From Campylobacteraceae bacterium (GTDB taxonomy: Bacteria; Campylobacterota; Campylobacteria; Campylobacterales; Sulfurovaceae): a stretch of 61,829 nt of DNA. The position numbers were made by a program, and so were the translations under genes. Within the stretch, counting starts at the first letter, position 1. Each line of letters starts with the position of its first letter. Under the pieces are notes generated by a model. That model was not told the origin of the DNA, did no database searches, and saw only the letters and a list, made by a program, of their open reading frames with translations. Below are positions 14,861 through 33,873 of this stretch, piece by piece. The stretch covers positions 1 to 61,829 of the forward strand of contig JALVXC010000025.1 in NCBI GenBank assembly GCA_027038275.1, written 5' to 3'.

Positions 14861-15766
14861 TTAAGGAATAACTACGTTAAGATTCATATGGTCTTCATCT
14901 GTATTTCCTTGTGCATCAATAACAACTAATTTAATATCATGAACTCCTGCTTCATTAGGAGCATACCATCTTTTCTTATGTGAACCAATATAGGTAGTTC
15001 CATCATACCATTTATAAGATACAATACCATTTACTCCAAAACTATTACTTCCGTTTAAATAAACAGCTCTATGAGATGGTGTAACATTTAAAACTTTATC
15101 TTCTCCTGCATCTGCTTGAAGTGAAGTGCCTGGGTCTGTGTTTAGTATTTTTACTTTTACATTTACAGTATCACTATCATTACGATCACTATCGTTAGTA
15201 ACAGTCAATGTAATAGGATATGTTGCATTAACATCATTAGGCGGAGTGAAATCAAGTATTGACTCTTCTCCTAAAGTTGTTCCATTTACATCAGTCCATT
15301 TATAACTAGTAATATGTGAAAAATTAGCACCTGGAGTACTTGCTCCACCATCTAATGTTACACTTGTATTCGATGGAGTTATAGTTGCTGTAATATCTTC
15401 TCCTGCATTAGCGTGAGGTGTACTTATAGCTGTAACATTTATTACATCTTCATCTGTGCAACCTGTAGATGTTTTAATGATTAAGCTAATTTGTTGGAAT
15501 TTTGATGTTGGAGTATACCAACGAGCAGCACCACTACCTAAATAGCTAGAGCCTTTATACCACTTATAAGATATAATTTCACCTGCACCTGGAGTAACTG
15601 TACTACCTTTACCATTAAGATATACAGAACGCTTTGAGGGTGTTACATACAAAATTTTATCTCCTCCTGCATTAGCTGTACAAGTAGCTTGTTCTTCAGA
15701 GGCATTTAGTGTTTGTATTCCTAAAATTAAACCTAAACAGACTATTGTTTTTAATGATTTCATCAT
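14861..15766 (-). CDS. Secreted three-PKD-domain protein
   Basis: A 301-residue protein with a Sec signal peptide (cleavage near NAS, residue 23) followed by three PKD-like Ig-fold domains (about 30-115, 118-208, 217-300). Domains 1 and 3 are the local Trp/Tyr-rich variant: xANAGxDKxLxVTPSxRxVYLNG, then SYKWYxGxxYxGSxxxRWY, then DEDxxxxxV. Domain 2 is a more ordinary PKD. Domain 3 is almost identical to the last PKD of the divergent 16014-19133 protein. Cys29 and Cys103 bracket domain 1 and could pair. There is no anchor or C-terminal sorting signal. A second ATG three bases on (15763) is better spaced from AAGG. Role unknown; probably a surface or matrix protein of the polysaccharide locus. 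Confidence 0.82.
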   Translation of the reverse strand: MMKSLKTIVCLGLILGIQTLNASEEQATCTANAGGDKILYVTPSKRSVYLNGKGSTVTPGAGEIISYKWYKGSSYLGSGAARWYTPTSKFQQISLIIKTSTGCTDEDVINVTAISTPHANAGEDITATITPSNTSVTLDGGASTPGANFSHITSYKWTDVNGTTLGEESILDFTPPNDVNATYPITLTVTNDSDRNDSDTVNVKVKILNTDPGTSLQADAGEDKVLNVTPSHRAVYLNGSNSFGVNGIVSYKWYDGTTYIGSHKKRWYAPNEAGVHDIKLVVIDAQGNTDEDHMNLNVVIP

Positions 15767-15819: not shown

Positions 15820-16013
15820 TTTTGTAATAGTATAATTATAAATATTAATATTTATTTAAAAATAGATAATTAAATAAAATATTATTATTAATTTAAAATT
15901 ATTATATATTATTAAAAAAGTTATTTTTTTTAATAAAAAAATAAAATTTTGTTTTTAATTTTATAATTATTATGATAACATATAATCCTATATCTAAATT
16001 AAAAAGGAAATAC

Positions 16014-19000
16014 ATGAATTATGCTTCACTCATTAAAGTCAAAATTATATTAATATTATTATTGACTTTTTCAAATTTTTATGCTATGGCATCTAATATA
16101 ACAGGGACTTCAAGTAATATTGAGGCAAAACATATTGGTCCAGCTGTGGGAGGTGCTATGTTTGCCATTGCCATTGACCCAACAAATAAGAATAATATCT
16201 TTTTTAGTGGAGATATGGGAGTTGTATATCATACAATAGATGGAGGGAATAGTTGGAGTATTGTACCAGGTATGTATCGTATTCGCTCTATTAAGTTTGA
16301 TCCTAACAATACAAATATTATTTGGGCTATAGGTTCAACAGGGGTTTATAAGTCTATTGATGGAGGAGCAACTTGGCAATATAGTTTCAGTACCTATCAT
16401 AGATATAATTTTACATTAGGAGCTATAGCAATTGATCCTACTGATTCAAATATTGTTTATGTAGCTGAGGGATTTGTTTCGTACTTTAGACTAACCTATG
16501 TAAGAGGTAGAGTTTTTAAAACTACTAATGGAGGAAAGAGTTGGAAACTCTTAACAAGACCAGGAGGAGATACTTCTTCAGATTCTATTTATAATAGAAA
16601 CTACTCTACAATCCTTATTGACCCAAATAGTAGTTATACTTCAGGTGTAGGACATAGTGATGTTTATCTTATGGGGAGAGATGGGCTCTTTAAATCAACA
16701 GATGCTGGAGGTAGTTGGCAAAATATTACTTTTTTTGATGAGGGGCAAGGTTCAGATGCTATCTTGATTGATGACAATAACCAAACTACTCTTGTTGTCT
16801 CAGTTATACCAATGAAAAATCATAGCAAAAAAGGGGTTTATAAAAGTACTGACAATGGTCAAACATGGCAAGAGATTAATAATGGGCTAGAAGATATTAT
16901 TCATGCATTATCTATACGAAATAAAAATATTAAAAGAACTACTCAATTCTCGTTAATGTTAGCACATAGTCGTTCAGATAAAAATACAATCTATGTTGGT
17001 TCTTGGCAAGGAGTTGCAAAAACTACTAATCAAGGTCAAAGTTGGACACAAACTACCCCTGCTGAGACACCATATATTAAACATGTTAGTGGAAAATATG
17101 TTCAAGCTCCTCTAAACACACATCCTAATCAAACAAAAACTTTTCTTGGTGGTATAGATAACTTTATTAAAATGACAGCATCAGATAGTGATTCTAACTT
17201 TGTAATTTTTGGAGATAATCGAGATATTCATTTTTCTACAGATGGAGGAACTGTATGGGAAAGTAGAAGTTTTGATTACAAGGAACCTTTTGTAAATCCT
17301 CCAACTGATGTTTTACCTACTCTACCAGAGAACTCTCCAGCAAATGTATATACACATACAATTAAATCTAGAGGTGTACAAGGATTGGTAAACAATGATA
17401 TTGTAGTAGACCCTTTTGACCCAAAAACTTATTATGCAACATATAGAGATGTTGGTCTTTATGTTTCAAGAGATGCAGGAGAAACATGGGAACATCCAAC
17501 TATAGGACTACCTCCAAGAGGACATGCATGGTCAGTTACAGTAGACCCAAATAACGATGGAGTAGTTTGGGTCTCTATGGCTAAAAGTGGTTCAGTCTAT
17601 AAAAGTATTGACCATGGGGTATCTTGGAGTGATGTTTCAATAAATACCTCATCAACTGATGATACTCTACCAACTAGTCATGTAAGAGATTTAGCCTTTG
17701 ATGCTCAAAATAGTATCTTATATGCAGCTACCAATAAAGGTATTTATAAAAGTAGTAATGGGGGTCAAAATTGGCAAAGAATTTTTAATTTAGATATCTT
17801 TGATATAAAAATAGATCTATCAAATAAAGATATTTTATATGCAGGTACAAAAACAGGATTATACAAAAGTACTGATAGAGGTAATAACTGGAATCAATTA
17901 GCTTCTGATAAAATGGGAAAAGTATATAATATATCTGTTAGTAAAAATAATACCATATATGTTATATCAAATAAATCAGGAGAATACTCTCGTTGGCAAA
18001 GTAGAAAACTATGGGTATCTACAGATGGAGGAGTAAACTTTAGTGAGATTACACCATCTTTTATGCATCCAATTGGTGGAGTAGCTGTTGATCCTAATGA
18101 CCCTCAGCATGTGTATATATCGACCTATGAAACAAATCAAAAATATCTAGATGATCCCGCAATTATGGCACAATCTAAAGATGGTGGTCTTACTTGGGAG
18201 AAATTAGTAGATAATTTTGCTTTTGCATTAGGAACTGATATTTATATCAATCCTAAAAATCCAAGTCAAATATTTTTCAATACAAACTTTTCACTTATTG
18301 AGGTTAATAACAATAATACTCCTGTTGTAACTTTAACTGCAAATGCAGGGGATGATGTAGTATTAAATGTAACCCCATCACATAGAGCAGTTTATCTTAA
18401 TGGGAAAGATAGTACTAGCTCTAATGGTCATACTATTGTTAGTTATAAATGGTATGATGGTGATAGATACATCGGTTCTGGTGCTACTAGATGGTATACT
18501 CCTAATAGTGCAGGTGTACATGATGTCAAATTGGTTATTACAGATGATCAAGGTAATAGTAGTGAAGATCATAAGTTGATTACAGTATATAAACAACTTA
18601 AGGCAAATGCTGGTAAAGATATTAATGTGGCAATTACATCATCTAATACAAGTGTCAGATTAGATGGTACAGCAAGTAGTGATCCTACAAATATTGCTAG
18701 TTATGAATGGTTTGATGCAAATGGAACACGTTTAGGAGTAGGCTCAATTATTGATATTACACCTCCTGCAATAGATGGAGCATATCCTGTTACCTTAACT
18801 GTTAAAGATGAAGCTGGACATAGCGATAGTGATACAGTAGTTATAAATGTAACTGTAGTAGACTCAAATATTTCAATTAAAGCAGATGCAGGAGAAGATA
18901 AAGTTTTAAATGTTACACCATCCCATAGAGCAGTTTATTTAAATGGAAGTAAAAGTTTTGCAACACAAGGTATTGTATCTTATAAATGGTATGATGGTAC

Positions 19001-19133
19001 TACTTATATTGGTTCACATAAGAGAAGATGGTATGTTCCTAATGGTTCAGGAGTTCATGATATTAAATTAGTTATTACAGATACTCACGGAAATACAGAT
19101 GAAGATCATATGAGTCTTACAGTAAATAATTAA
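16014..19133 (+). CDS. Secreted tandem beta-propeller (13 Asp boxes, GH74/sortilin-like) with three PKD domains
   Basis: About 1039 residues. A signal peptide (1-26) is followed by a propeller region (about 30-770) with 13 Asp-box motifs of the form S-x-D-x-G-x-x-W, then three PKD-like domains (about 773-861, 862-954, 955-1039). Thirteen boxes over about 740 residues suggest two seven-blade propellers, as in GH74 xyloglucanases. The segment GGAMFAIAIDP to SGDMGVVYH aligns ungapped with the GH74 start, placing Asp67 at the GH74 catalytic Asp. There is no C-terminal anchor or sorting tag. I chose the ATG at 16014 because AAAAAGGA precedes it and its paralogue begins identically; the in-frame ATG at 15972 lacks both. 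Probably a glycan-binding or glycan-cleaving extracellular protein. Confidence 0.82.
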   Translation: MNYASLIKVKIILILLLTFSNFYAMASNITGTSSNIEAKHIGPAVGGAMFAIAIDPTNKNNIFFSGDMGVVYHTIDGGNSWSIVPGMYRIRSIKFDPNNTNIIWAIGSTGVYKSIDGGATWQYSFSTYHRYNFTLGAIAIDPTDSNIVYVAEGFVSYFRLTYVRGRVFKTTNGGKSWKLLTRPGGDTSSDSIYNRNYSTILIDPNSSYTSGVGHSDVYLMGRDGLFKSTDAGGSWQNITFFDEGQGSDAILIDDNNQTTLVVSVIPMKNHSKKGVYKSTDNGQTWQEINNGLEDIIHALSIRNKNIKRTTQFSLMLAHSRSDKNTIYVGSWQGVAKTTNQGQSWTQTTPAETPYIKHVSGKYVQAPLNTHPNQTKTFLGGIDNFIKMTASDSDSNFVIFGDNRDIHFSTDGGTVWESRSFDYKEPFVNPPTDVLPTLPENSPANVYTHTIKSRGVQGLVNNDIVVDPFDPKTYYATYRDVGLYVSRDAGETWEHPTIGLPPRGHAWSVTVDPNNDGVVWVSMAKSGSVYKSIDHGVSWSDVSINTSSTDDTLPTSHVRDLAFDAQNSILYAATNKGIYKSSNGGQNWQRIFNLDIFDIKIDLSNKDILYAGTKTGLYKSTDRGNNWNQLASDKMGKVYNISVSKNNTIYVISNKSGEYSRWQSRKLWVSTDGGVNFSEITPSFMHPIGGVAVDPNDPQHVYISTYETNQKYLDDPAIMAQSKDGGLTWEKLVDNFAFALGTDIYINPKNPSQIFFNTNFSLIEVNNNNTPVVTLTANAGDDVVLNVTPSHRAVYLNGKDSTSSNGHTIVSYKWYDGDRYIGSGATRWYTPNSAGVHDVKLVITDDQGNSSEDHKLITVYKQLKANAGKDINVAITSSNTSVRLDGTASSDPTNIASYEWFDANGTRLGVGSIIDITPPAIDGAYPVTLTVKDEAGHSDSDTVVINVTVVDSNISIKADAGEDKVLNVTPSHRAVYLNGSKSFATQGIVSYKWYDGTTYIGSHKRRWYVPNGSGVHDIKLVITDTHGNTDEDHMSLTVNN

Positions 19134-19146
19134 TATTTTCTTACTA

Positions 19147-19174
19147 ATACCTATGAAGAATAATTCATAGGTAT
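19147..19174 (+). terminator. Stem-loop after propeller gene 1
   Basis: A perfect 11-bp stem (ATACCTATGAA 19147-19157 with TTCATAGGTAT 19164-19174), 6-base loop, 14 bases after the stop. There is no clear T-run. Nearly the same hairpin follows the paralogue at 22249. Confidence 0.55.
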
Positions 19175-19360
19175 AACAATAAACTACATTAAATATATTT
19201 CTTTATATTTCTCACATATAATGTATAAAAATACACTATTTAGTGGGAAATTCTCTTTCTACTGCTTAATAATCTCACTTTTTTAATCAAAAATAGTTAC
19301 GAATAGTTAACTAATAATTATATATATTTAAAAAAGTATATATAATAATATGTTTTATAG

Positions 19361-19380
19361 TTGTATATGTTAATATACAA
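19361..19380. promoter_or_regulatory. Inverted repeat upstream of propeller gene 2
   Basis: TTGTATAT (19361-19368) and ATATACAA (19373-19380) with a 4-base spacer, ending 28 bases before the ATG at 19409. It is a possible operator or leader hairpin. AT-rich, so modest support. The wider gap 19134-19408 holds no gene. Confidence 0.3.
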
Positions 19381-19408
19381 AAAATAGAACAAATCAAAAA
19401 GGAAAAAC

Positions 19409-22249
19409 ATGAATTATGTTTCAATTGTTAAAGTCAAAATTATGTTAATTTTGTTATTGACTTTTCCAAGTTTTTATGCTACGGCATCTAACATAACAGG
19501 AACCTCAAGTAATATTGAGGCAAAACATATTGGTCCAGCTGTGGGAGGTGCTATGTTTGCCATTGCCATTGACCCAACAAATAAGAATAATATCTTTTTT
19601 AGTGGAGATATGGGAGTTGTCTATCATACGGTAGATGGAGGAAATAGTTGGAGTATTGTGCCAGGTATGTATCGTATCTCTTCTATTAAATTTGATCCAA
19701 ATAATACAGATATTATATGGGCTGTAGGTGCAACAGGAGTTTATAAGTCTGTTGATGGAGGAGCAACATGGGAATATACTTTTAATACCTATCATTCATT
19801 TAATTTTACATTAGGAGCTATAGCAATTGACCCTACTGACTCAAATATTGTTTATGTAGCAGAAGGTTTTGTTCCTTATTATAGATTGGATCATATAAGA
19901 GGAAGAGTTTTTAAAACTACAAATGGTGGAAAAAGTTGGAAATATATGAGACCTGGAGGAGATTCATCTTCTCTTGTTTATAATAGAAACTACTCTAAAA
20001 TTCTTATAGACCCTAATAGTAACTATACTCCAGGTGTAGGACATAGTGATGTCTATTTTATGGGACGAGACTATCTATTTAAAACAACAGATGCTGGAGA
20101 TAGTTGGCAAAATATTAGTTTTTTTGAGAAGGGACAAGGTTCAGATGCCATCTTAATTGATGACAATAACCAAACCACTCTTATTGTCTCTGTTATACCA
20201 GTAAATGGGCATGATAAAAAAGGAGTTTATAAGAGTACAGATAATGGTCAAACATGGCAAGAGATTAATAATGGACTAGAAGATATTATTGATGCCTTAT
20301 ACACGCACAATACAGATATTAATAAAACTATTCAATTTTCATTAATGTTAGCACATAGTCATTCAGATAAAAATACAATCTATGTTGGTTCTTGGCAAGG
20401 AGTTGCAAAAACTACTAATCAAGGTCAAAGTTGGACGCAAACTACTCCTGCTGAAACACCATATATTCAACATGTTAGTGGTGTATATGTTCAAGTTCCT
20501 TTAAACACACACCCTAACCAAACAGAAACTTTTGTTGGTGGTATAGATAACTTCATAAGAATAACAGCATCAGATAGTGATTCTAACTTTGTTATTTTTG
20601 GAGATAATCAAGATATCTCTTTCTCTACAGATGGAGGAACGGTATGGAAGAGTAGAACCTTTGATTACAATGACTCTTTTGTAGCCTCTCCGACTGATAT
20701 TTTACCTGATTTACCAGAAAATTCCCCACCAAATAGATATACACACAAAATTAAATCTAGAGGTGTACAAGGACTTGTAAATACAGATATTGCTATAGAT
20801 CCTTTTGACCCAAAAATTTATTATGCAACCTATATGGATGTTGGTCTTCAAATTTCAAGAGATGCAGGGAAAACATGGGAGCATCCAAGTGATGGACTAC
20901 CTCCAAAAGGACACGCTTGGTCAGTTACTGTAGACCCAAATAACGAAGGAGTAGTTTGGGTATCTGTAAATAAAAAAGATTTAATTTATAAAAGTACAGA
21001 CCATGGAGTATCTTGGAGTGGTGTTCCAGTAGATACTTCAGTTGATAAAGTAAGAGATTTAGTTTTTGATTCTAATAATAGTATTTTATATGCAGCTACT
21101 GATGAAGGTATTTTTAAAAGTAGTAATGGGGGTCAAAATTGGCAAAGTATTTCTAATCGGGATACTTTTGATATAAAAATAGACCTATCAAATAAAGATA
21201 TTTTATATGCAGGAACAAGAACAGGATTATACAAAAGTACTGATGGAGGTAATAATTGGAATCAATTAGCTTCTGATAAAATGGGGAAAGTATATAATAT
21301 CTCTGTTGGAAAAAACAATACTGTATATGTTATATCAAACGAATCAGGAGAAGAATACGATTGGCAACGTAGAAGACTATGGGTTTCTACAGATGGAGGA
21401 GTAAACTTTAGTGAGATTACACCATCTTTTATGCATCCAATTGGTGGAGTAGCTGTTGATCCTAATGACCCACAACATATATATATATCAACCTATGGAA
21501 CAAATCAAAAACATCCAGATGATATAGCTATTATGGCACAATCTAAAGATGGTGGTCTTACTTGGGAAAAATTAGTAGATAATTTTGCTTTTGCATTAGG
21601 AACTGATATTTATATCGATCCAAAAAATTCAAATCATATATTTTTCAATACACGATTTTCACTTATTGAGGTGAATGTTAGTATTCCCACTTTGATTGCA
21701 GATGCAGGAGAAGATGCAACAATAATTGTAACACCATCAAGAACTTCTTTTTACCTTAACGGAACAGATAGTAAATCTTTATCGGAGTTTGATATTGTTA
21801 AATATAAATGGTATGATAAATATAATAGTGACAGATATAGATATATTGGTTCTGGCTCTAAACGATGGTATTATGTTAAAAACAAGATAGGTGTACATGA
21901 TATTAAACTAGTAGTTATAGACGAACAAGGTAATAAAGCTGAAGATCATATGACTCTTACTGTAAAAAATAGAGTTCAAGCAGATGCTGGTCCAGACAGA
22001 AATATAACAATAACACCGTCACGTAAATCTGTTTATCTTGATGGAAGAAATAGTTTTGCAGTAGATGGTATAGACTCTTATCAATGGTATGATAAATATA
22101 ATAGTGATGAATATAAACATATCGGTCCTCATGCTACGCGATGGTATTCTGTTGCTAGTAAACCAGGAGTTCATACTATTAAACTAATTATAAAAGATAA
22201 AAAAGGTCAAGAGAGTCAAGATATAATGACTCTTACCGTAAACAACTAA
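19409..22249 (+). CDS. Secreted tandem beta-propeller (13 Asp boxes, GH74/sortilin-like) with two PKD domains
   Basis: A 946-residue tandem paralogue of 16014-19133: the same signal peptide, the same 13 Asp boxes in the same order and the same SGDMG motif (Asp67), with long blocks unchanged. After the propeller it has only two PKD-like domains (about 762-855 and 856-946). These differ from the first protein's in a longer YDKYNSDxYxxIG hairpin, which suggests that the propeller was duplicated while the PKD tails were exchanged or evolved separately. AAAAAGGA precedes the ATG. No anchor or sorting tag. It is followed at its stop by the same hairpin as the first copy. Role inferred: extracellular glycan recognition or processing. 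Confidence 0.82.
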   Translation: MNYVSIVKVKIMLILLLTFPSFYATASNITGTSSNIEAKHIGPAVGGAMFAIAIDPTNKNNIFFSGDMGVVYHTVDGGNSWSIVPGMYRISSIKFDPNNTDIIWAVGATGVYKSVDGGATWEYTFNTYHSFNFTLGAIAIDPTDSNIVYVAEGFVPYYRLDHIRGRVFKTTNGGKSWKYMRPGGDSSSLVYNRNYSKILIDPNSNYTPGVGHSDVYFMGRDYLFKTTDAGDSWQNISFFEKGQGSDAILIDDNNQTTLIVSVIPVNGHDKKGVYKSTDNGQTWQEINNGLEDIIDALYTHNTDINKTIQFSLMLAHSHSDKNTIYVGSWQGVAKTTNQGQSWTQTTPAETPYIQHVSGVYVQVPLNTHPNQTETFVGGIDNFIRITASDSDSNFVIFGDNQDISFSTDGGTVWKSRTFDYNDSFVASPTDILPDLPENSPPNRYTHKIKSRGVQGLVNTDIAIDPFDPKIYYATYMDVGLQISRDAGKTWEHPSDGLPPKGHAWSVTVDPNNEGVVWVSVNKKDLIYKSTDHGVSWSGVPVDTSVDKVRDLVFDSNNSILYAATDEGIFKSSNGGQNWQSISNRDTFDIKIDLSNKDILYAGTRTGLYKSTDGGNNWNQLASDKMGKVYNISVGKNNTVYVISNESGEEYDWQRRRLWVSTDGGVNFSEITPSFMHPIGGVAVDPNDPQHIYISTYGTNQKHPDDIAIMAQSKDGGLTWEKLVDNFAFALGTDIYIDPKNSNHIFFNTRFSLIEVNVSIPTLIADAGEDATIIVTPSRTSFYLNGTDSKSLSEFDIVKYKWYDKYNSDRYRYIGSGSKRWYYVKNKIGVHDIKLVVIDEQGNKAEDHMTLTVKNRVQADAGPDRNITITPSRKSVYLDGRNSFAVDGIDSYQWYDKYNSDEYKHIGPHATRWYSVASKPGVHTIKLIIKDKKGQESQDIMTLTVNN

Positions 22250-22398: not shown

Positions 22399-23265
22399 AT
22401 GAAAGGTATTATTTTAGCAGGTGGTTCGGGTACTCGTCTATATCCTGTTACAACAAGTATATCTAAACAGCTATTGCCAATTTATGATAAACCAATGATT
22501 TATTATCCCTTATCTGTTTTAATGCTTGCAGGGATAAAAGATATATTAATTATATCAACACCACAAGATATAGATAATTTTAAGAGACTTCTAGGCAATG
22601 GAGAGAATTGGGGTATTAGATTAGAGTATAAAGTTCAACCATCACCAGATGGACTAGCACAAGCTTTTACCCTTGGAGAAGAGTTTATAGGAAATGAAAA
22701 TGTCTGTTTAATACTAGGAGACAATATCTTTTATGGTCAAGGTTTTTCTCCTATGCTTAAAAAAGCTTCTAATATAGAAGATGGTGCAATTGTTTTTGGA
22801 TACCAAGTAAATGATCCTGAGCGTTTTGGTGTTGTCGAATTTAAAAACAATAGAGTAATTAGCATAGAAGAGAAACCAAAACATCCAAAATCAAACTTTG
22901 CTGTAACAGGACTCTACTTTTATGATAATGATGTAATAGAAATAGCAAAAAATATTAAAAAATCCCATCGTGGAGAGTTAGAGATAACATCAGTAAATGA
23001 AGAGTATTTAAAAAGAGGTAAATTGAGAGTTGAGCTTTTAGGTAGAGGCTTTGCATGGCTTGATACAGGAACACACGATACTCTTCTATCTGCTGGACAA
23101 TTTGTGCAGACTATAGAACATAGACAGGGTTATAAGATAGCATGTCTTGAAGAGATAGCTTATAATAATGGTTGGATTAATAGAGAAAAAGTTTTAGAGA
23201 TAGCTGAACCTTTAAGTAAAAATAGTTATGGACAATATCTAAAGGATTTAGTAAAAGATGACTAA
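22399..23265 (+). CDS. rmlA: Glucose-1-phosphate thymidylyltransferase
   Basis: A 288-residue nucleotidyltransferase that makes dTDP-glucose from glucose-1-phosphate and dTTP. The N-terminal nucleotide loop is GGSGTRLYP (about 8-16). It also has the Lys of [40 protein letters not shown] and [11 protein letters not shown]. Length is normal for RmlA. AAAAGGAA precedes the ATG. It is the first gene of a tightly packed run (rmlA-rmlB-DegT-ATP-grasp), overlapping rmlB by eight bases, that supplies an amino-deoxy sugar nucleotide. Confidence 0.95.
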
Positions 23266-24271
23266 CATACTCTTAACAGGAACAGCTGGGTTTATAGGCT
23301 CAAATTTTGTTCCATATTTTTTAGAAAAGTACCCTAATTATAACTTAATAAACCTCGATTTACTTACTTATGCAGGTGATATAAAAAACCTAAGTGAGTG
23401 TGAACTAAACCCTAGATACAAATTTATCAAAGGAGATATTTGTAATCGGGATTTAGTTGAATATATATTTCAAGAGTATAATATTCAAGGAGTTATTCAT
23501 TTTGCTGCTGAGTCACATGTAGATAACTCTATTAAAAATCCAGGGGTATTTATAGAGACCAATGTAAAAGGCACTTTTACACTTATAGATGTAGCTCAAA
23601 AGTATTGGATGAATAGACCATTTGAGTATAAAGATGAACATAAAGGGTATGGTCGTTTTCACCATATCTCAACTGATGAAGTCTATGGAACACTTGGAGA
23701 GACTGGACTATTTACAGAAGAGACACCTTATGCTCCTAACTCTCCATACTCTGCATCTAAAGCAAGTAGTGATATGATAGTCCGTTCATATCATGAGACG
23801 TATGGATTAAATACAGTTATAACAAACTGTTCAAATAACTATGGACCAAAACAGCATGATGAAAAACTTATTCCAACTATTATTAGAAAAGCATTAGAAG
23901 GAGAGAGTATTCCAATATATGGAGATGGGAAAAATATTAGAGATTGGCTGTATGTGTTAGACCACTGTAAAGGTATAGATTTAGTTTTTCATAAAGGAAA
24001 AGTAGGCAATACTTACAATATTGGTGGACGAAACGAGAGAACAAATCTTCAAGTTGCTAATGCTATCTGTAGAGTATTAGATGAAAAAGTACCTAAATCT
24101 AAATCCTATAAGAGATTAATTAGATTTGTAGAAGATAGAGCTGGTCATGATAGACGTTATGCTATTGATGCAACAAAAATTGAGACAACATTAGGCTGGA
24201 GAGCTGATGAAGACTTCAATACAGGTATTATTAAAACCATTGAATGGTATTTAAAGAAGTATAATGATTAA
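23258..24271 (+). CDS. rmlB: dTDP-glucose 4,6-dehydratase
   Basis: A 337-residue short-chain dehydrogenase/reductase that converts dTDP-glucose to dTDP-4-keto-6-deoxyglucose. The NAD-binding motif is [10 protein letters not shown] (7-16). STDEVYG carries the Thr/Asp/Glu catalytic trio and YSASKAS the Tyr-x3-Lys pair. [14 protein letters not shown] binds the nucleotide sugar. There is no rmlC or rmlD nearby. The next gene is a sugar aminotransferase, so the keto intermediate is probably aminated and not turned into L-rhamnose. It overlaps both neighbours by eight bases. Confidence 0.95.
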
Positions 24272-25355
24272 TGTAACAAAAACATATTTACCAAATAAGA
24301 AAAATTATCAAAAATATGTAGATGAAATATATGCTAATGGGTGGATTACTAATAATGGCCCATTAGTTCAAAAACTAGAAAATAGACTGGCTAAGTACCT
24401 TGGTGTTAAAAATATTATATTAGTATCAAATGGAACTACTGCTCTTGAGATTGCCTATCGTACTTTAGATTTAAAAGGTTATGCTATCACAACACCATTC
24501 TCTTTTGTAGCTACAACAAGCTCTCTTGTAACAAATGGTTTACATCCAATCTTTGCAGATATTGATTTAGATACCTTGAACATTGATCCAAATAAAATAG
24601 AAAATTTAATTACTTCAAATACTTCTGCTATTGTTCCAGTACATGTTTTTGGTAATGCTTGTAATGTTGAAGCTATTGATAAAATAGCAAAAAAAAATAA
24701 TCTAAAAGTTATTTATGATGCTGCACACGCTTTTGATGTGAAGTATAAAGGTAAAAGCATATTAAACTATGGAGATATATCAACACTTAGTTTTCATGCA
24801 ACAAAGCTTTTTCACACTATAGAGGGTGGTGCTTTAATAATTAACGATGATAGTTTAGTTCAAAAAGCTAGATACCTCATAAACTTTGGAATTAAAAATA
24901 CAGAATCTATTCCTGACCTTGGAACCAATGCTAAGATGAATGAGTTTGAAGCTGCCATGGGGCTTTGTATGCTTGATGAGATAGAAAATATTGAAAAGCA
25001 AAGAGAGATACTCTATTTTACATACAAAAAAGAGTTAGATGAAGTAGTTAAATTTCAACAACAAAATGAAAATTCAACACTAAATTATAGCTATTTTCCA
25101 ATAATCTTAGATAGTCAGGAGCAGACATTAAAGATACAAAAGGCATTAAATAGTAAAAATATATTCCCAAGAAGATATTTCTATCCATCTCTTGATACAT
25201 TAGATTATATTGAACCAAAACAGTTTATGCCAAATTCACGAGATATAAGTGAAAGAATATTATGTTTGCCTTTATATCCTGAACTTACTAAAGCTGAACA
25301 GATGGAAATTATAAATATAATAATATCTACAATTGGAATAACTAATGAAAAATGA
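24264..25355 (+). CDS. DegT/DnrJ/EryC1 sugar aminotransferase
   Basis: A 363-residue PLP-dependent aminotransferase of nucleotide sugars. SNGTTALEIAY (about 55-65) and DAAHAF line the cofactor site. The internal aldimine lysine is Lys181 (FHATKLFHTIEGG). Placed eight bases inside the end of rmlB, it should act on dTDP-4-keto-6-deoxyglucose, giving dTDP-4-amino-4,6-dideoxyglucose as VioA does; the 3-keto route (QdtB/FdtB) would need an isomerase that is not seen. The next gene (ATP-grasp) overlaps it by 11 bases and may acylate the new amine. The family is certain; the regiochemistry is inferred. Confidence 0.88.
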   Translation: MINVTKTYLPNKKNYQKYVDEIYANGWITNNGPLVQKLENRLAKYLGVKNIILVSNGTTALEIAYRTLDLKGYAITTPFSFVATTSSLVTNGLHPIFADIDLDTLNIDPNKIENLITSNTSAIVPVHVFGNACNVEAIDKIAKKNNLKVIYDAAHAFDVKYKGKSILNYGDISTLSFHATKLFHTIEGGALIINDDSLVQKARYLINFGIKNTESIPDLGTNAKMNEFEAAMGLCMLDEIENIEKQREILYFTYKKELDEVVKFQQQNENSTLNYSYFPIILDSQEQTLKIQKALNSKNIFPRRYFYPSLDTLDYIEPKQFMPNSRDISERILCLPLYPELTKAEQMEIINIIISTIGITNEK

Positions 25356-26514
25356 TTATAAAAATATACTTTTATGTGATGCAAACTTTTGTGTTTTACC
25401 AATATTACAAAGTATTAAAAAGCGAGGTTTCTCTTTAAGTGTGGTTGGCTCTAAACTTGATGACCCAGCACACTATTTAGCTGATAAGTCTGTAGATATT
25501 AATTATGCTGATATTGAAATGCTATATCAGTATATATCTGAAAATAACTATGATGGAGTAGTACCTGGTTGTAATGATAGAGCATATATATCTTTAGCAT
25601 ATGTAGCCCAAAAGATGAATTTTACTGGCTTTGATGATTATGAAACAGTACTTACTATTCACCATAAAGATAAATTTAGAATATTTGCAGAAGAGCATAA
25701 TTATCCTATTCCAAAAGCAATAGATTCTATTGAAAAAATAGAATTGATTAACTTTCCTGTATTAGTTAAGCCTGTAGATTCGTTTAGTGGAAAAGGTATT
25801 AACAAAGCAAATAATATAGATGAGTTTAAAAAGTATTGGATAGAGGCAGAAAAGTTTTCACCTTCTGGTTTGGTTGTTGCAGAAGAGTTTGTAGAAGGTA
25901 ATTTATATAGTCATTCTGCTTTTATAAAAGATAAAAAAATTATTATTGATTTTTTTGTTAATGAATACTGTACCGTATATCCTTATCAAGTAAATAGCTC
26001 TAATATTTCTACACTTCTTAATAAGAAGATTCAAGATGGACTAAGAAGTTGGACAGAAAAATTTGCAAATGATTTAAATTTATGTGATGGATTAATCCAT
26101 ACACAATTTATATCTGATAATAAAAGTTTTTATTTGATAGAGATAGCAAGAAGATGTCCAGGTGATTTATATAGCCAGTTAATTCAGAAAAGCACAGGAG
26201 TAAACTATGCAGAACTATATGCTATGCCTTTTTGTGGATTAGAATTACCAGATAGTATAGAAAAAAAAGATATGAAATATATCTCAAGACATACAGTTAG
26301 TCTTGATAGTGATTGTATTTTTATTAGTTCTAGTCTAAATATAGATAGTATTACTACTCAAAATGTACAGCTTAAATATAGTGGTGAAGAGATGAAATCA
26401 GCTCCATTTGGAAAGTCAGGTATCTATTTTGTCGAGCATAAAAATATGGAAGCTATGGAAACATTGACAGAAAAATTAAAAGATTTTGTAGTTATAGAGA
26501 AACTTGACTTATAA
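25345..26514 (+). CDS. ATP-grasp carboxylate-amine ligase
   Basis: A 389-residue protein with a pre-ATP-grasp Rossmann-like part (about 1-100), an ATP-binding region (FPVLVKPVDSFSGKGI, about 138-153, then VVAEEFVEGNLYSHSAF) and the metal-binding end (LIEIARRCPGDL), as in PurK/CarB-type ligases. It would join a carboxylate to an amine through an acyl phosphate. Its position directly behind the sugar aminotransferase, with translational overlap, suggests that it attaches an amino acid or small acid to the 4-amino sugar. Substrate unknown. A second ATP-grasp gene is at 35782-36984 but is not closely similar by eye. Confidence 0.82.
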   Translation: MKNDYKNILLCDANFCVLPILQSIKKRGFSLSVVGSKLDDPAHYLADKSVDINYADIEMLYQYISENNYDGVVPGCNDRAYISLAYVAQKMNFTGFDDYETVLTIHHKDKFRIFAEEHNYPIPKAIDSIEKIELINFPVLVKPVDSFSGKGINKANNIDEFKKYWIEAEKFSPSGLVVAEEFVEGNLYSHSAFIKDKKIIIDFFVNEYCTVYPYQVNSSNISTLLNKKIQDGLRSWTEKFANDLNLCDGLIHTQFISDNKSFYLIEIARRCPGDLYSQLIQKSTGVNYAELYAMPFCGLELPDSIEKKDMKYISRHTVSLDSDCIFISSSLNIDSITTQNVQLKYSGEEMKSAPFGKSGIYFVEHKNMEAMETLTEKLKDFVVIEKLDL

Positions 26515-26533
26515 AATATAAATGGAGAAAAAG

Positions 26534-27682
26534 ATGAAAGATTATAAACAACCATTGAAACTTGCATTTATAGGTGGTGCTATAGACTCGGCAATTGGAT
26601 ATACTCACTACATAGCTTCTCAAATGGATCATAGGTTTACCCTTTGTGCGGGTTGCTTTAGTAGAAGAGAAGGTATAAACGAAAAAACAGCATTAACTTG
26701 GGGAGTTGAAAGAGAACATCTCTACTCAAATTGGGAGATACTTTTAGAAAATGAGGTAGAAAATATTGATGCTGTTGTTATACTTACTCCAACACCAAAT
26801 CATTATGAAATGATAATGAAAGCTCTTGAGTTAGGATACTCTGTAATTTCAGAAAAGGCACTCGCTACTACTTATGAGGAAGGTATAAAGTTAACAAATA
26901 AAATTGATGAAAAAAAAGCTTTTTTTGCAGTGACCCATAACTATACTGGATATCCAATGATTAGAGAATTGCAAAATATGATAAAAGAGAATAATCTTGG
27001 AAAAATTACACATATAAATATAGAGATGCCTCAAGAAAGTTTTGCAAGATTAGATATAAATGGAAATAAACCAAAACCTCAAAACTGGAGATTAGAGGAT
27101 AGTAAAATTCCTGGAATTTCACTTGATTTAGCTGCTCATTTACAACATATGATCTATTTTTTAACAGGTGAAAATCCAATTGAATTGGTAGCAGACCAAT
27201 CTAGTTTTGGATGGTTTACAAATATTATAGATGATATAACTTGCTTAGCTAGATATAAAAGTGGCATGAAAACTCAAATGTGGTATGGCAAATCTTCAAT
27301 AGGTCATAGAAATGGATTGAGAATAAGAGTTTATGGTACAAAAGGCAGTGCTGAATGGTTTCAAATGCAACCTGAAGAGTTAATTTTTAATACTATAAAT
27401 GGCAATAAAATGATAATAGATAGGGCATCAAATGTTTCTGTGGCAAATCAGTTAAGATACAATCGATTTAAATCGGGTCATCCTGCTGGATTTATTGAAG
27501 CATTTGGTAATCTTTATGTTGATATAGCCCAAAAGCTAGAACAGTATAAGATTGACAATAATCATCAAATTGATTGGACATATGATGCTAAACAGGCAAC
27601 AAAAGGATTAGAAATATTTGAAGCTATTCAAAAATCATCAAACGAAAATAGATGGGTAGAGTTAGAAGGAAAAATATATTGA
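26534..27682 (+). CDS. Gfo/Idh/MocA-family oxidoreductase
   Basis: About 382 residues. The N-terminal Rossmann domain begins LKLAFIGGAIDSAIG; VILTPTPNHYEMIMKALELG and SEKALATT (with the EK-x-A motif that carries the catalytic-region Lys) are typical of NAD(P)-dependent sugar oxidoreductases. The C-terminal alpha/beta domain holds GISLDLAAHLQHMIYFLTG, whose His is in the usual catalytic place. GGAG at six bases supports the ATG at 26534; the in-frame ATG at 26522 has no ribosome site. It probably oxidises or reduces a nucleotide sugar or pendant group made by the preceding genes. The exact substrate cannot be told. Confidence 0.87.
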   Translation: MKDYKQPLKLAFIGGAIDSAIGYTHYIASQMDHRFTLCAGCFSRREGINEKTALTWGVEREHLYSNWEILLENEVENIDAVVILTPTPNHYEMIMKALELGYSVISEKALATTYEEGIKLTNKIDEKKAFFAVTHNYTGYPMIRELQNMIKENNLGKITHINIEMPQESFARLDINGNKPKPQNWRLEDSKIPGISLDLAAHLQHMIYFLTGENPIELVADQSSFGWFTNIIDDITCLARYKSGMKTQMWYGKSSIGHRNGLRIRVYGTKGSAEWFQMQPEELIFNTINGNKMIIDRASNVSVANQLRYNRFKSGHPAGFIEAFGNLYVDIAQKLEQYKIDNNHQIDWTYDAKQATKGLEIFEAIQKSSNENRWVELEGKIY

Positions 27683-27713
27683 TTTTAAAAAATAAAATTT
27701 TTGAGTTACAATT

Positions 27714-29180
27714 ATGAGTAGTTTAAAAACACAAGGAGTCAAAGCATATCTATGGGATTTTATTGGTAAGATTCTGCAAAATGGTATGGGTTTTATTGTT
27801 TCCATATTTTTAGCAAGATTACTAGAACCATCTGAATTTGGTATGATTGCTATGATAATGGTTATTATTGGAATGGCTCAGATTTTTACTGATATTGGTC
27901 TTGGTGGAGCTTTAATACAGCGACGAAGAGTACTCCCTATACACTATTCATCAGTTTTTTATTTTAATATTTTTATTGCGTCTATTTTAAGTTTAATTAC
28001 TTATATCTTTGCATCTAAAATAGGTGAATTTTATAATAATATTGAACTAGTCCCTTTGGCAGAGGTGATGTCTTTATCTTTCATCATTGCAGCATTTTCA
28101 AGTGTACAAAATGTAAAATTACGTAAAGAGTTAAACTATGCACTTTTAACAAAAATGAATCTTATTGCATCACTTATAAGTGGCATACTTGGTGTATCAT
28201 TAGCATTTTATGGTGCGGGTGTTTGGAGTTTAGTAGTACAGAATCTATCTCAAAGAGTTATTTACAATATTTTAATTTGGAATAGAGCTAAATGGAAACC
28301 ATCTTTAGAATTTTCATTTAAGGCGTTAATGCAGTTGTGGGGTTATGGATTTCGTATGTTTTTATCAGGATTACTAGAGAATATATTTATACGTTTAGAC
28401 TATCTTATCATTGGTAAACTTTTTGAAGCTACAGCATTAGGATTCTTTCAACGTGCAAAATCTTTAAATTTATTTGTAATCCGATACTCCTCTAGTAGTT
28501 TAATGAGTGTGCTATTTCCGATATTAAGTAAAATTCAAAATGATTTACCTCGATTTCAAAATATTATTGTTAAATCGCTTGGAATTATTAGTTTTGCCTC
28601 TTTTTTGCTTCTTGGTGGATTATATTTAGTCTCTGAAGAATTTATAGTGTTGTTATTTGGAGAAAAGTGGCTTCCTTCTGTTTATTACTTTAAAATTTTG
28701 GTATTAAGTGGATATGCATATCCAATTAGTGCACTGTTAGTCAATGTACTAAGTAGTAGAGGCAATTCAAAAGCATTTTTACGACTAGAAATTTATAAAA
28801 AATTAATATCGACAGTTGGCTTTATAATTTTATATTTTTATAATATAAACACATATTTATATACTCTTATTATTTTGGTAGTTTTAGCAGTAACTTTAAA
28901 TATTATATTTGTATCTCGTGAAATAAATTTACCTTTTTTCAAACTAGCTAATCCTATATTAACACAAGCAGGTACAGCAATAATTTCTGTAATGGCGACA
29001 ACTTTCATAGTGCAGAACATAGAATTAACAAATATAATAATGTTTATTATTAAGGGTTCAATATTCCTATTTTTCTATATAGGGGTTAATTATTTATTTA
29101 AAACAAGCTCTTTCTTTTATATCTTAGAACAAATAAAACCAGTTGTAAAGAAAAAGTTTGTAAATAAGATAGATAATTAA
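27714..29180 (+). CDS. wzx: Polysaccharide repeat-unit flippase (Wzx family)
   Basis: A 488-residue integral membrane protein with about 12-14 hydrophobic segments, of the MOP superfamily (WzxC/Polysacc_synt_3 type). The start has the signature pattern WDFIGKILQNGMGFIVSIFLARLLEPSEFG, given here in part as FIVSIFLARLLEPSEFG, followed by DIGLGGALIQR. It should translocate the lipid-linked oligosaccharide unit across the inner membrane for polymerisation by the Wzy-like protein (43967-45187). The ribosome site is weak. It ends 15 bases before the pyruvyl transferase gene. Confidence 0.9.
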   Translation: MSSLKTQGVKAYLWDFIGKILQNGMGFIVSIFLARLLEPSEFGMIAMIMVIIGMAQIFTDIGLGGALIQRRRVLPIHYSSVFYFNIFIASILSLITYIFASKIGEFYNNIELVPLAEVMSLSFIIAAFSSVQNVKLRKELNYALLTKMNLIASLISGILGVSLAFYGAGVWSLVVQNLSQRVIYNILIWNRAKWKPSLEFSFKALMQLWGYGFRMFLSGLLENIFIRLDYLIIGKLFEATALGFFQRAKSLNLFVIRYSSSSLMSVLFPILSKIQNDLPRFQNIIVKSLGIISFASFLLLGGLYLVSEEFIVLLFGEKWLPSVYYFKILVLSGYAYPISALLVNVLSSRGNSKAFLRLEIYKKLISTVGFIILYFYNINTYLYTLIILVVLAVTLNIIFVSREINLPFFKLANPILTQAGTAIISVMATTFIVQNIELTNIIMFIIKGSIFLFFYIGVNYLFKTSSFFYILEQIKPVVKKKFVNKIDN

Positions 29181-29195
29181 AAAGGAGATAGTATA

Positions 29196-30401
29196 TTGAG
29201 TAAAATTCAAAAAATTACAATAGTAAATGCACATTGGAGCAATAGAGGTGATGAGGCAGCTCTTTTAGCTGTTGTAGATGGACTACAAAAAAAATATCCA
29301 AATAGTAAAATTATGATTTTATTTAAAGATGATAAACAGATACAGCAGTTCCCAAATATTAAAAATGTAGATTATGATACTGCTAAATTTAATGCAAAAA
29401 TTTGGGATATATGGATTACAACCATTTCTCGTGGAGTACTGGGAATAAATGATAAATTAAAATTTATGGTAAAAACTCTTTTAAAATCAGATTTGATTAT
29501 CTACTCTCCAGGTGGTTCAGTTATCAATAGCCGATTTTTTTGGCGAAAACAGATGGAGTATTTAGTTCCTTTTATCTGCTCAAAGTTTTACAATATTCCT
29601 TTAATGATAGCAGCTCCTTCTATAGGACCATTTGATTCAAATAAACCAAATAGAATCTTAAAGTGGCTTTTAAAAGTTCCAAAGGTATTTATAGTAAGAG
29701 AAGAGATATCAAAAAGATACCTTGAAGAGATAGGTATTATAGATAATATTGTAACGACCATAGATTCAGCATTTTATGATGGTATTAAAGAAGAGATAAA
29801 TAAGAAAAAGCTTGATGAGTATAAAGATTTAAAAGAGTATTTAAACTCTCATGAGAAGGTAGTTGGTATAACTATTACAGATTTTTCATGGCATGTAAAA
29901 TATGGTAAAGATAAAGAGTTGTCTAAACGAATAACAGACTCTTTTAGACAATTTTTAGATAAGCTTCAAAGTGAGGGGTATGGTATTTTATTTATACCTC
30001 AGCTATTTGGCAATCAAAATGATTCTGACTATATGGACACTTTTTCAACAGATAAAACATTTATGATGAAAGATACTTATGATACTTATTTTCAACAATA
30101 CATCATCTCAAAGCTTTATGCTGTAGAGGGTATGAGATACCATTCAAATATATTTTCTGCAAAAGTAGGAACACCATTTATTCCTGTAGTATATGAAGAG
30201 AAGATGGAAGGATTTGTAGAAATAGCAGGATTAAATGATTATGCTATATCACTTAATGAACTTTCCTTTGAACAATTAGAAGAGAAGTTTGAAAAACTTA
30301 TTGATAACTATGATGATGTAAAAGCTATGTTTAGAGATAAATTACCTAATTGGAAACAACAGGCTTCAAAAACAATTGAATTATTAGGAAAATATAACTA
30401 A
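29196..30401 (+). CDS. Polysaccharide pyruvyl transferase family protein
   Basis: A 401-residue member of the CsaB/WcaK family (PS_pyruv_trans). NAHWSNRGDEAALLAVVDGL at the start, LIIYSPGGSVINSRF, MIAAPSIGPFDS, a VREEISKRYLEEIGI helix, and late EGMRYHSNIFS with the conserved His. These enzymes transfer pyruvate from phosphoenolpyruvate to make a ketal on a sugar, adding negative charge. It starts at TTG with AAAGGAG eight bases upstream. It overlaps the FrhB-like gene by one base (TAATG), a pairing that recurs in polysaccharide loci as remembered, so the two likely act together. Confidence 0.88.
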   Translation: MSKIQKITIVNAHWSNRGDEAALLAVVDGLQKKYPNSKIMILFKDDKQIQQFPNIKNVDYDTAKFNAKIWDIWITTISRGVLGINDKLKFMVKTLLKSDLIIYSPGGSVINSRFFWRKQMEYLVPFICSKFYNIPLMIAAPSIGPFDSNKPNRILKWLLKVPKVFIVREEISKRYLEEIGIIDNIVTTIDSAFYDGIKEEINKKKLDEYKDLKEYLNSHEKVVGITITDFSWHVKYGKDKELSKRITDSFRQFLDKLQSEGYGILFIPQLFGNQNDSDYMDTFSTDKTFMMKDTYDTYFQQYIISKLYAVEGMRYHSNIFSAKVGTPFIPVVYEEKMEGFVEIAGLNDYAISLNELSFEQLEEKFEKLIDNYDDVKAMFRDKLPNWKQQASKTIELLGKYN

Positions 30402-31549
30402 TGGTAAAAAAGAAAAAAATAAATATTTTGGATACAACTGCTGTAAGAGATTGTACAGGTTGTTCTGCTTGTAGTTTAGTTTGTCATTCTAATGCTATCT
30501 CTATGAATTTAACTAAAAAAGGTTTTTATGAGCCAAGTATTGATGATGATTTATGCACAATGTGTGGTGTATGTCCAGATGTATGCTATAAATTTAATGA
30601 ATTTGATAATATAAATCCATTCGAAGGAACAGAAGTTATAGCTGTAACTAATAATTTTATAGACGATATGAATTCTATATCAACTGTTGGAGTTGCAACT
30701 AGATTAGCTGAACATTTTTACGAATTGGGTTATAATGTATGTGGTGTAAAGTATGATTATGAAAAAAATATCGCATATCATGATGTCGCAACACAACTGG
30801 AAGATATTTTAGAGTTTAAAGGTTCAAAATATATACCTAGTGATACAAAAGATGCATTTAAGCAACTCCTCAAAGATAAGAAGCAATCTATTGTTTTTGG
30901 ATTACCTTGTCATATACATGGATTAAGAAAGATAATAGAAAAAAAGAAAATAGCAGATAGATTTATTTTAGTTGACCTTTTTTGTGCTGGTGTACCATCT
31001 CAAAGTGTATGGAATAAACACTTAGACTATCTCAATAGGAAATTTTCTATAGGAAAAATAAAGAAACTAAATTTTAGAGATAAAACACAAGGATGGCATA
31101 AATCATCTTTGGCTATAGAAGATATAAATAGTAATACTTATATACAAAATTGTTTTAATGATATGTTCTACGCATTTTTCTTAAAAAAAGCCTCTTTACA
31201 AGAGGCTTGTTATAGTTGTGAATTTAGAACGAATGTAGTTTCATCAGACATTAGATTAGGTGATTTTTGGGGGGCAAAATATAAAGTATGGGATGATGGA
31301 GTTGAATTGATGACAATTATGAATGAACAAGGAAGGTTTGCATGGGAAGAGATTAAAGATTATTTTAGTTATCAAAAGTGCAAAGAAGCAGACTTATATG
31401 AATCTCAAAAATCAGGTTCTATGAAAACTTCAGTGAAAAAACCAAATAATTATAATAAAATTTTGAATTCTTTATCTTCAGATAAAAAATTAGAAGAAAT
31501 TTTTAAAGAATTTAAAATAGCTAAGTTAGCTTTTGGTGGAGAATCGTAG
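30401..31549 (+). CDS. Coenzyme F420 hydrogenase beta-subunit-like iron-sulfur protein
   Basis: A 382-residue protein with two N-terminal [4Fe-4S] ferredoxin motifs (Cys18, 21, 24, 28 and Cys52, 55, 58, 62), then the FrhB/FdhB N and C domains (GLPCHIHGLRKII, VDLFCAGVPS, ACYSCEFRTN, RLGDFWG). FrhB relatives bind flavin and move electrons. Versions in polysaccharide clusters are of unknown substrate. It is coupled by a one-base overlap to the pyruvyl transferase, which hints at a redox step on the same sugar or acceptor. An internal 9-bp hairpin at 31188-31208 is within the coding sequence. The family is clear and the role unknown. Confidence 0.87.
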   Translation: MVKKKKINILDTTAVRDCTGCSACSLVCHSNAISMNLTKKGFYEPSIDDDLCTMCGVCPDVCYKFNEFDNINPFEGTEVIAVTNNFIDDMNSISTVGVATRLAEHFYELGYNVCGVKYDYEKNIAYHDVATQLEDILEFKGSKYIPSDTKDAFKQLLKDKKQSIVFGLPCHIHGLRKIIEKKKIADRFILVDLFCAGVPSQSVWNKHLDYLNRKFSIGKIKKLNFRDKTQGWHKSSLAIEDINSNTYIQNCFNDMFYAFFLKKASLQEACYSCEFRTNVVSSDIRLGDFWGAKYKVWDDGVELMTIMNEQGRFAWEEIKDYFSYQKCKEADLYESQKSGSMKTSVKKPNNYNKILNSLSSDKKLEEIFKEFKIAKLAFGGES

Positions 31550-32757: not shown

Positions 32758-33873
32758 ATGAAAAATTTTAACAAAAATTTGAAAGCTATTTTACTATCAA
32801 TATGTATAGGACTATTTGCAGTACCTACTTTTGCAACTGCGGTAACAGCTGATGCAGGATCAGATAAAATACTTAATGTCACACCTAGTAATAGAGCAGT
32901 TCATTTAAAAGGTTCAGGAACAGGAGTAGAACCTTTAACTTACAAATGGTATGAAGATGAAAAGTTTATTGGACGTGGTGCAAGTCGTTGGTATGTCATT
33001 ACTCAAGGTGGTGAACATAATATCACTTTAGTTGTAACAGATGCCAATGGTAGTAAAGCTACAGATACAATGACAGTAACTGTAAATAAAGTAACAGCTA
33101 ATGCAAGTAGAAGTAAATCTGTTCATTTAGAGGGTTCAGGAACAGGAGTAGCACCTTTAACTTACAAGTGGTATGAAAAGGGTCATCTTATTGGTGAAGG
33201 TCAAAGTTATGAGTATGTGAATTCTCAAAACGGTGAACATGAAATTACTTTGGTTGTAACAGATGCAAATGGAGCTAAAGCTATAACCAAAACGACAGTC
33301 ACTGTAGAGAATGGAGCAGATTATATACCATTAACAGCTAATGCAGGACCAGATGCGATACTTAACATAACATCTAGCAATAGAGCAGTTTATTTAAATG
33401 GTTCAGAAACAACAGGAAATGCTCCTTTAACTTATAAATGGTATGAGAATGATAAATTTATTGGAACTGGTGTAGGTCGTTGGTATCGTATTACTCAAAA
33501 TGGTGAACATGAGATTACTTTAGTTGTAACTGATATTGATGGAAATGAAGATAGCGATACCATGATAGTTACCGTGAATAATGGAGAAGATGATACTCCA
33601 GCATTAGTAGCTGATGCAGGACCAGACAAAACACTTAATATCACATCTAGTCATAAATCGGTTTATTTAAAAGGTTCAGGAACAGGAGGAGTAGCTCCTT
33701 TAACTTACAAATGGTATGAGAATAATCATTATATTGGTAAGGGGTCACGCCGTTGGTATCGTATTACTCAAAATGGTGAACATGAGATTACTTTGACTGT
33801 AACAGATGCTAATGGTAATGTAGCTAAAGATACCATGATAGTTACAGTGAATAATGGAGAGACTAATTATTAA
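32758..33873 (+). CDS. Secreted four-PKD-domain protein
   Basis: A 371-residue protein: signal peptide of about 26 residues (ending TFATA), then four PKD-like domains (about 29-113, 114-188, 194-279, 284-367) of the local Trp/Tyr-rich variant (xADAGxDKxLNxT, PLTYKWYExxxxIGxG, RWYxITQxGEHxITLVVTD). Domain 2 lacks about ten residues at its first strand (TANASRSKSVHLEG) and has lost the RWY triplet, so it is degenerate. Domains 3 and 4 are joined by NNGEDDTP. No enzymatic domain, anchor or sorting tag. It closes the plus-strand half and converges on the minus-strand half. It may be a structural or adhesive partner of the polysaccharide. Confidence 0.82.
   Translation: MKNFNKNLKAILLSICIGLFAVPTFATAVTADAGSDKILNVTPSNRAVHLKGSGTGVEPLTYKWYEDEKFIGRGASRWYVITQGGEHNITLVVTDANGSKATDTMTVTVNKVTANASRSKSVHLEGSGTGVAPLTYKWYEKGHLIGEGQSYEYVNSQNGEHEITLVVTDANGAKAITKTTVTVENGADYIPLTANAGPDAILNITSSNRAVYLNGSETTGNAPLTYKWYENDKFIGTGVGRWYRITQNGEHEITLVVTDIDGNEDSDTMIVTVNNGEDDTPALVADAGPDKTLNITSSHKSVYLKGSGTGGVAPLTYKWYENNHYIGKGSRRWYRITQNGEHEITLTVTDANGNVAKDTMIVTVNNGETNY

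Follow-up and report, generated by a model that had tools for sequence, protein, structure and literature searches.

Two tandem paralogues with a predicted GH74-type fold and a candidate catalytic aspartate pair adjoin exopolysaccharide genes in a Campylobacteraceae bacterium

The closest described proteins to the paralogues reported here are the GH74 xyloglucanases, including Gly74A of C. japonicus (5fkq, 5fkr and 5fkt), Xgh74A of C. thermocellum (2cn2 and 2cn3) and OXG-RCBH (1sqj), with which they share full-length tandem seven-bladed Asp-box propellers and an N-terminal GG...D-x-G-x-x-Y motif. GH74 enzymes have two established catalytic residues, both Asp, and the deposited sequences 5fkq (ARTAIGG) and 5fkt (SALGAIGG), engineered variants of C. 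japonicus Gly74A, carry Ala in place of Asp at exactly these two positions. An architecture of two tandem seven-bladed propellers made from one continuous stretch of blades has been classified as the type 3 Asp-box arrangement (Quistgaard and Thirup, PMC2716378). Operons for exopolysaccharide (EPS) synthesis often include a gene for a hydrolase or lyase, as exemplified by PslG, AlgL, CelC2 and PelA (PMC9894940). A title and abstract search, with subscription papers mostly outside its reach, found no paper linking GH74 to an EPS locus. To our knowledge, none of PslG, the PelA hydrolase domain, CelC2 and AlgL is a twin-propeller GH74-like protein.

The window analyzed here, a 61,829-nucleotide stretch from a Campylobacteraceae bacterium (contig JALVXC010000025.1 of assembly GCA_027038275.1), contains two paralogous ORFs arranged in tandem on the same strand. 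Each encodes a Sec-type signal peptide (recognized by eye), ~730 residues of propeller with 13 Asp boxes, as the earlier note on this DNA had counted, and then PKD domains:

16014-19133, plus strand: paralogue 1, 1039 aa from the ATG at 16014, with a signal peptide, a predicted tandem 7+7 Asp-box propeller and three C-terminal PKD domains
16089-18311, plus strand: propeller region of paralogue 1, with 13 Asp boxes; fold inferred from 83% identity to the modeled propeller region of paralogue 2
16212-16214, plus strand: codon for Asp67 (GDMG) of paralogue 1, equivalent to the first GH74 catalytic Asp by profile alignment
17448-17450, plus strand: codon for Asp479 (YRDVGL) of paralogue 1, equivalent to the second GH74 catalytic Asp by profile alignment
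18312-19124, plus strand: three PKD domains of paralogue 1
19409-22249, plus strand: paralogue 2, 946 aa, with a signal peptide, a predicted tandem 7+7 Asp-box propeller and two C-terminal PKD domains
19481-21694, plus strand: propeller region of paralogue 2, 738 aa, modeled by AlphaFold2
19607-19609, plus strand: codon for Asp67 (GDMG) of paralogue 2, equivalent to the first GH74 catalytic Asp by profile alignment
20837-20839, plus strand: codon for Asp477 (YMDVGL) of paralogue 2, equivalent to the second GH74 catalytic Asp by profile alignment
21686-22240, plus strand: two PKD domains of paralogue 2

The first ORF is listed from 15972 (15972-19133), but its start is best placed at the second ATG, 16014, as in the earlier note: translation from there opens with MNYA..., like that of paralogue 2, and both genes share the upstream AAAAGGAAA; the aligned starts of the two paralogues both bear 'aaaaggaaaNacATGAATTAT'. 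dN/dS values of 0.25-0.33 among the paralogues and their orthologues indicate that both paralogues are under purifying selection. Between the window paralogues (16089-18311 and 19481-21694) dS is 0.33, less than the 0.49 that separates paralogue 1 from L007, its likely orthologue, and both contigs of a second genome, G026 (L005 and L007), break at the same residue. The low paralogue dS and the shared breakpoint suggest gene conversion between the tandem copies.

AlphaFold2, run without templates on the propeller of paralogue 2 with 31 sequences, returned a model (pLDDT 83.2, pTM 0.85) that is a tandem pair of seven-bladed propellers (7+7). In a Foldseek search of the PDB, ranks 1-25 were all GH74 structures (E 4.9e-33 to 9.4e-26), with a drop to 1.5e-17 for the next class, and the top 18 VIA entries were likewise all GH74 (Z 28.4-31.9, 601-641 aligned residues, 3.7-4.2 Å), with model residues ~6-735 running along the whole GH74 chain. 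The best VIA match was AFV00434, an “ancestral GH74” (PDB 6p2k; Z 31.9, 641 residues, 4.0 Å, 17% identity to the window protein), with other GH74s within about 1. An earlier AlphaFold2 model, built from five close sequences (pLDDT 73), had already given 25 GH74 chains as the Foldseek top 25. Single seven-bladed propeller structures match model residues 22-393 and, separately, ~6-734, which indicates two rings, the second of which would be closed by the N-terminal strand. The model fits type 3 of PMC2716378 and not a ten-blade ring; where the earlier note had weighed two GH74-type seven-blade propellers against a single ring of ten, structure prediction thus gave the former, with GH74 the closest match throughout. 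We consider it nearly certain, on the basis of the model, that the window proteins have a GH74-type fold.

Several other assignments were rejected. A sortilin-like ten-blade ring does not fit the 7+7 model, and no sortilin row appears among the VIA matches listed. The complete Sortilin/VPS10 domain (a ten-bladed propeller plus 10CC domains) does not fit either, since the 7+7 propeller is followed by PKD domains, and YCF48/HCF136, with one seven-bladed propeller of ~330 aa, does not match the ~730-aa tandem propeller. The NCBIfam model PRK13684 scored 54-61 bits on the window proteins against a cut-off of 326.

Close relatives of the window proteins (family A) are rare, being present in 3 of 34 genomes of the genus. 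A sample of 397 genomes from the phylum yielded no family A member at E 1e-20 beyond the window's own, and no relatives were found in viral contigs. More distant matches took in three true GH74s (L035, L081 and L089) and three members (L010, L053 and L066) of a collinear, uncharacterized family, family X, that bridges the window proteins and GH74. Searches of the genomes of these distant matches provided 30 usable family X sequences, one of them from a Nitratidesulfovibrio plasmid, and 19 usable GH74 sequences. In a FastTree tree rooted arbitrarily on GH74, A and X group together, apart from the GH74 set, with A on a long branch. The window proteins therefore appear, by sequence, to be a clade separate from and beside GH74; the earlier note's label “GH74-like” suits them, whereas formal membership of GH74 goes beyond that label and is unproven. 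Within one order, in a search centred on a Saprospiraceae genome, family X occurred in 23 of 249 sampled genomes (L053, L066 and L122-L145), often as a ~850-aa protein with inconsistent neighbors. A further set of more divergent Asp-box proteins, family B, is encoded in the same genome as the window and in a third genome, G007 (G000:C38 L172:10013-13054:-; G000:C126 L173:2680-7356:-; L009); two of these proteins carry PKD or bacterial Ig domains. The best alignment between B and A superposes both catalytic Asps (GDMG and YMDSAA), in an overall match that is weak (E 2.3e-8).

The earlier note had aligned the run from GGAMF to GDMGVVYH in both paralogues, without gaps, to the start of GH74 and had taken the Asp of GDMG as the catalytic one. 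We recovered the gap-free alignment with true GH74s from Streptomyces (L081 and L089; MAFFT) and, by phmmer, with residues 10-53 of PDB 6p2k, in the first blade of which SDM stands against GDM. By itself the first Asp is weak evidence, since an Asp occupies the corresponding strand end in 66 of 385 generic Asp-box blades (17%); what carries the assignment of Asp67 is the match in fold, together with profile alignments that are collinear and an Asp pair that is invariant. Profile-profile alignment of X with GH74 stayed collinear along the entire length (E 3.6e-36; score 296 versus 208 for the next register), with the two Asps of X falling on positions 39 and 421 of GH74. Family A aligned with X across the whole propeller region in the same collinear register (E 1e-63; 502 versus 343 for the next register), and a pooled A+X profile was collinear with GH74 (E 1.3e-42); both Asps coincided in each case. 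Masking ±4 residues (nine) around each Asp in both profiles left the equivalence unchanged. When family A alone was aligned with GH74 (hhalign), in contrast, a register shifted by one blade scored 215 versus 189 for the collinear one, and the Asp assignment therefore depends on family X as a bridge. When the PDB was searched directly, by phmmer or with profiles, the GH74 matches were repeat-driven and register-shifted. AFV00434 scores under the classical GH74s with the X profile.

The residues equivalent to Asp67 and Asp477/479 of the window proteins are Asp in all 30 family X and all 19 GH74 sequences, and the two are kept in 3/3 and 5/5 of family A. Transitive profile alignment via X thus gives the window proteins two candidate catalytic Asps, one per propeller, on the GH74 positions that are Ala in 5fkq and 5fkt. 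Asp67 falls where the earlier note had put it, with or without masking. For a second acid in the other half, the earlier note had offered FGDNxDI or YxDVGL; the profile alignment places it in the latter, and FGDNxDI is ruled out, since the GH74 column opposite it is not Asp and family X does not conserve it throughout. As far as alignment can decide, the place of the second catalytic-position Asp is settled as Y(M/R)DVGL, i.e., Asp479 in paralogue 1 and Asp477 in paralogue 2. The spacing between the two Asps is similar to that in GH74 (410 residues in paralogue 2 and 382 in the Streptomyces reference L089). Both catalytic positions are very likely conserved in the window proteins, and equivalence to GH74 in fold and active site is strongly supported.

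These alignments also bear on the idea that the window proteins are generic Asp-box propellers of the sortilin/VPS10 or YCF48 type, serving as an assembly factor or receptor, and that their likeness to GH74 comes from the repeats only. Sortilin-Vps10 is the top Pfam family for the propellers and YCF48 also exceeds its cut-off, but Sortilin-Vps10 is equally the best-scoring Pfam family for L081, a true GH74, so this label does not discriminate. Moreover, among full-length matches to the 7+7 model GH74 stands well clear of everything else, and the collinear alignment outscores every shifted register for X with GH74, A with X and pooled A+X with GH74. We regard a generic propeller as highly improbable.

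Around the two paralogues, with paralogue 2 at the head of the downstream operon, lie:

22399-31549, plus strand: polysaccharide operon directly downstream of paralogue 2, with RmlA-like, RmlB-like, aminotransferase, ATP-grasp, oxidoreductase, Wzx flippase, pyruvyl transferase and FpoF-like genes
14861-15766, minus strand: secreted PKD-only protein, divergent from paralogue 1, PKD subtype as in the paralogues; putative accessory role
32758-33873, plus strand: a further secreted protein with a PKD array, at the distal end of the plus-strand run; putative accessory role

The plus-strand run is thus bracketed by PKD-only proteins of the paralogues' PKD subtype. One PKD subtype (KWYDG...IGxGxxRWY) recurs in several proteins of the genome, with about 20 matches spread over 14861-15766, 32758-33873 and contigs C28, C35, C38, C76 and C120 of G000, and this recurrence suggests a shared matrix or polysaccharide-binding module. 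An adjoining EPS cluster on the opposite strand encodes a protein resembling the polysaccharide deacetylase of the XrtA system (34931-35785; 238 bits against a cut-off of 276), along with a heparinase II/III-like protein, glycosyltransferases, UDP-sugar dehydrogenases and a Wzc-like protein. Within the EPS cluster, 47657-51202 encodes a 1181-aa protein with repeated SdrD B-like domains that is probably a surface adhesin.

Paralogue 2 lies immediately 5' of rmlA in two genomes, that of the window and G026, where its orthologue is followed by rmlA, rmlB and an aminotransferase gene, with ATP-grasp and pyruvyl transferase genes beyond. In G007, a second, partial copy adjoins glycosyltransferase and flippase genes, such that all three genomes with family A have a copy near polysaccharide genes. 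The EPS linkage is firm for family A only, where it rests on these three genomes. A family X relative in N. vulgaris DP4 sits between exosortase/EpsI and acyltransferase genes; it (L169:6906-9491, on plasmid pDVUL01) has both GH74-like Asps, within an exosortase/EpsI exopolysaccharide cluster, and its annotation as “sialidase family protein” or exo-alpha-sialidase is probably wrong. The X genes of Bacteroidota have mixed neighbors, and EPS linkage as a general trait of X is unsupported, since most of these genes stand apart from EPS loci.

That related Bacteroidota proteins lie outside EPS loci would suit a glycoside hydrolase for feeding on, or cutting through, the polysaccharides of other organisms, with the EPS adjacency in the window arising by chance; GH74 itself digests plant xyloglucan, and the patchy distribution of the family (3 of 34 genomes of the genus) would fit an accessory trait. 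This hypothesis is at odds with the position of paralogue 2 directly before rmlA in two genomes and of the third genome's copy beside glycosyltransferase and flippase genes, and no transport or sugar-utilization genes were seen among the annotated neighbors. We consider it improbable. The cell's own polysaccharide is instead the most likely substrate, because paralogue 2 heads an operon with dTDP-sugar, amino-sugar, pyruvyl and flippase genes, and we would give that assignment roughly an even chance of being correct.

Beyond the Asp pair, the window proteins differ considerably from GH74 xyloglucanases, to which they are ~16-19% identical in structural alignment. Of the polar and aromatic positions that 85% or more of the 19 GH74s share, family A has kept the two Asps and core Asp-box positions but has lost most others; Tyr90, Trp94, Lys118, Arg126, Glu130, Arg131, Trp358, Glu398 and His427 of GH74, in the numbering of the conservation analysis, are examples that are absent or replaced in the window proteins. 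Because residues conserved across xyloglucanases, those that contact substrate in the cleft included, are mostly missing, these proteins are, judged by sequence, not xyloglucanases and probably have a different target; they also differ from them in having PKD modules and a polysaccharide-synthesis context. Family X (~17-25% identical to the window proteins) has conserved residues of its own that set it apart from A; in X, the other polar columns with at least 95% conservation are one Asn (Asn310; 30/30) and one His-Asp pair (His455-Asp456; 27/28 each), all absent from A.

Given the loss of these X-specific residues and of most GH74-conserved ones, family A could have drifted to binding. The window proteins might then be catalytically dead or weak GH74-like scaffolds, acting as a lectin or matrix adhesin whose propellers and PKD domains attach to the cell's polysaccharide and cross-link the matrix but leave the chains uncut. 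The several PKD modules of the paralogues, the PKD-only proteins of the same subtype that flank the locus, the tandem duplication of the propeller gene and the missing GH74- or X-conserved residues are all consistent with such a role. However, every A, B, X and GH74 member in which both sites were examined keeps the two Asps, whereas most other polar residues vary, and a pure binder would not need both. We consider a binding role unlikely and active hydrolases probable.

Our preferred reading, which we hold to be reasonably probable, is that the paralogues are exported GH74-related endo-glycoside hydrolases that trim or remodel surface polysaccharide, likely the cell's own; we infer the catalysis, its stereochemistry, the substrate and the role of the PKD modules. 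Each gene would produce a glycoside hydrolase with two propellers that is exported and belongs to a GH74-related family; its two seven-bladed rings would form a cleft that holds the polysaccharide. Asp67 of the first ring and Asp477/479 of the second would serve as the acid/base pair of an inverting mechanism and cleave the chain at internal glycosidic bonds in this inter-propeller cleft, while the PKD modules would probably anchor the enzyme to the surface matrix. Cleavage of the native polysaccharide would have a part in setting chain length, in release or in matrix remodeling, as has been demonstrated for hydrolases of other EPS loci. In this proposed role, i.e., trimming, release or clearance of a self-made polysaccharide, the window proteins would resemble PslG, the PelA hydrolase domain, CelC2 and AlgL (PMC9894940).

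A more tentative proposal is that A and X represent one or more new CAZy-level families of inverting endo-hydrolases, sister to GH74, that use the same catalytic pair on self-made bacterial polysaccharides, the plant-xyloglucan enzymes having evolved from or beside them. Proteins annotated merely as sialidase-like, sortilin-like or BNR repeat in many bacteria would gain a specific, testable candidate active site. Should the window proteins prove to act on polysaccharide that the cell itself makes, the range of the GH74 scaffold would no longer end at plant xyloglucan, and the window would supply a hydrolase paired with a defined EPS operon, a tool for the study or dispersal of biofilms of this kind.
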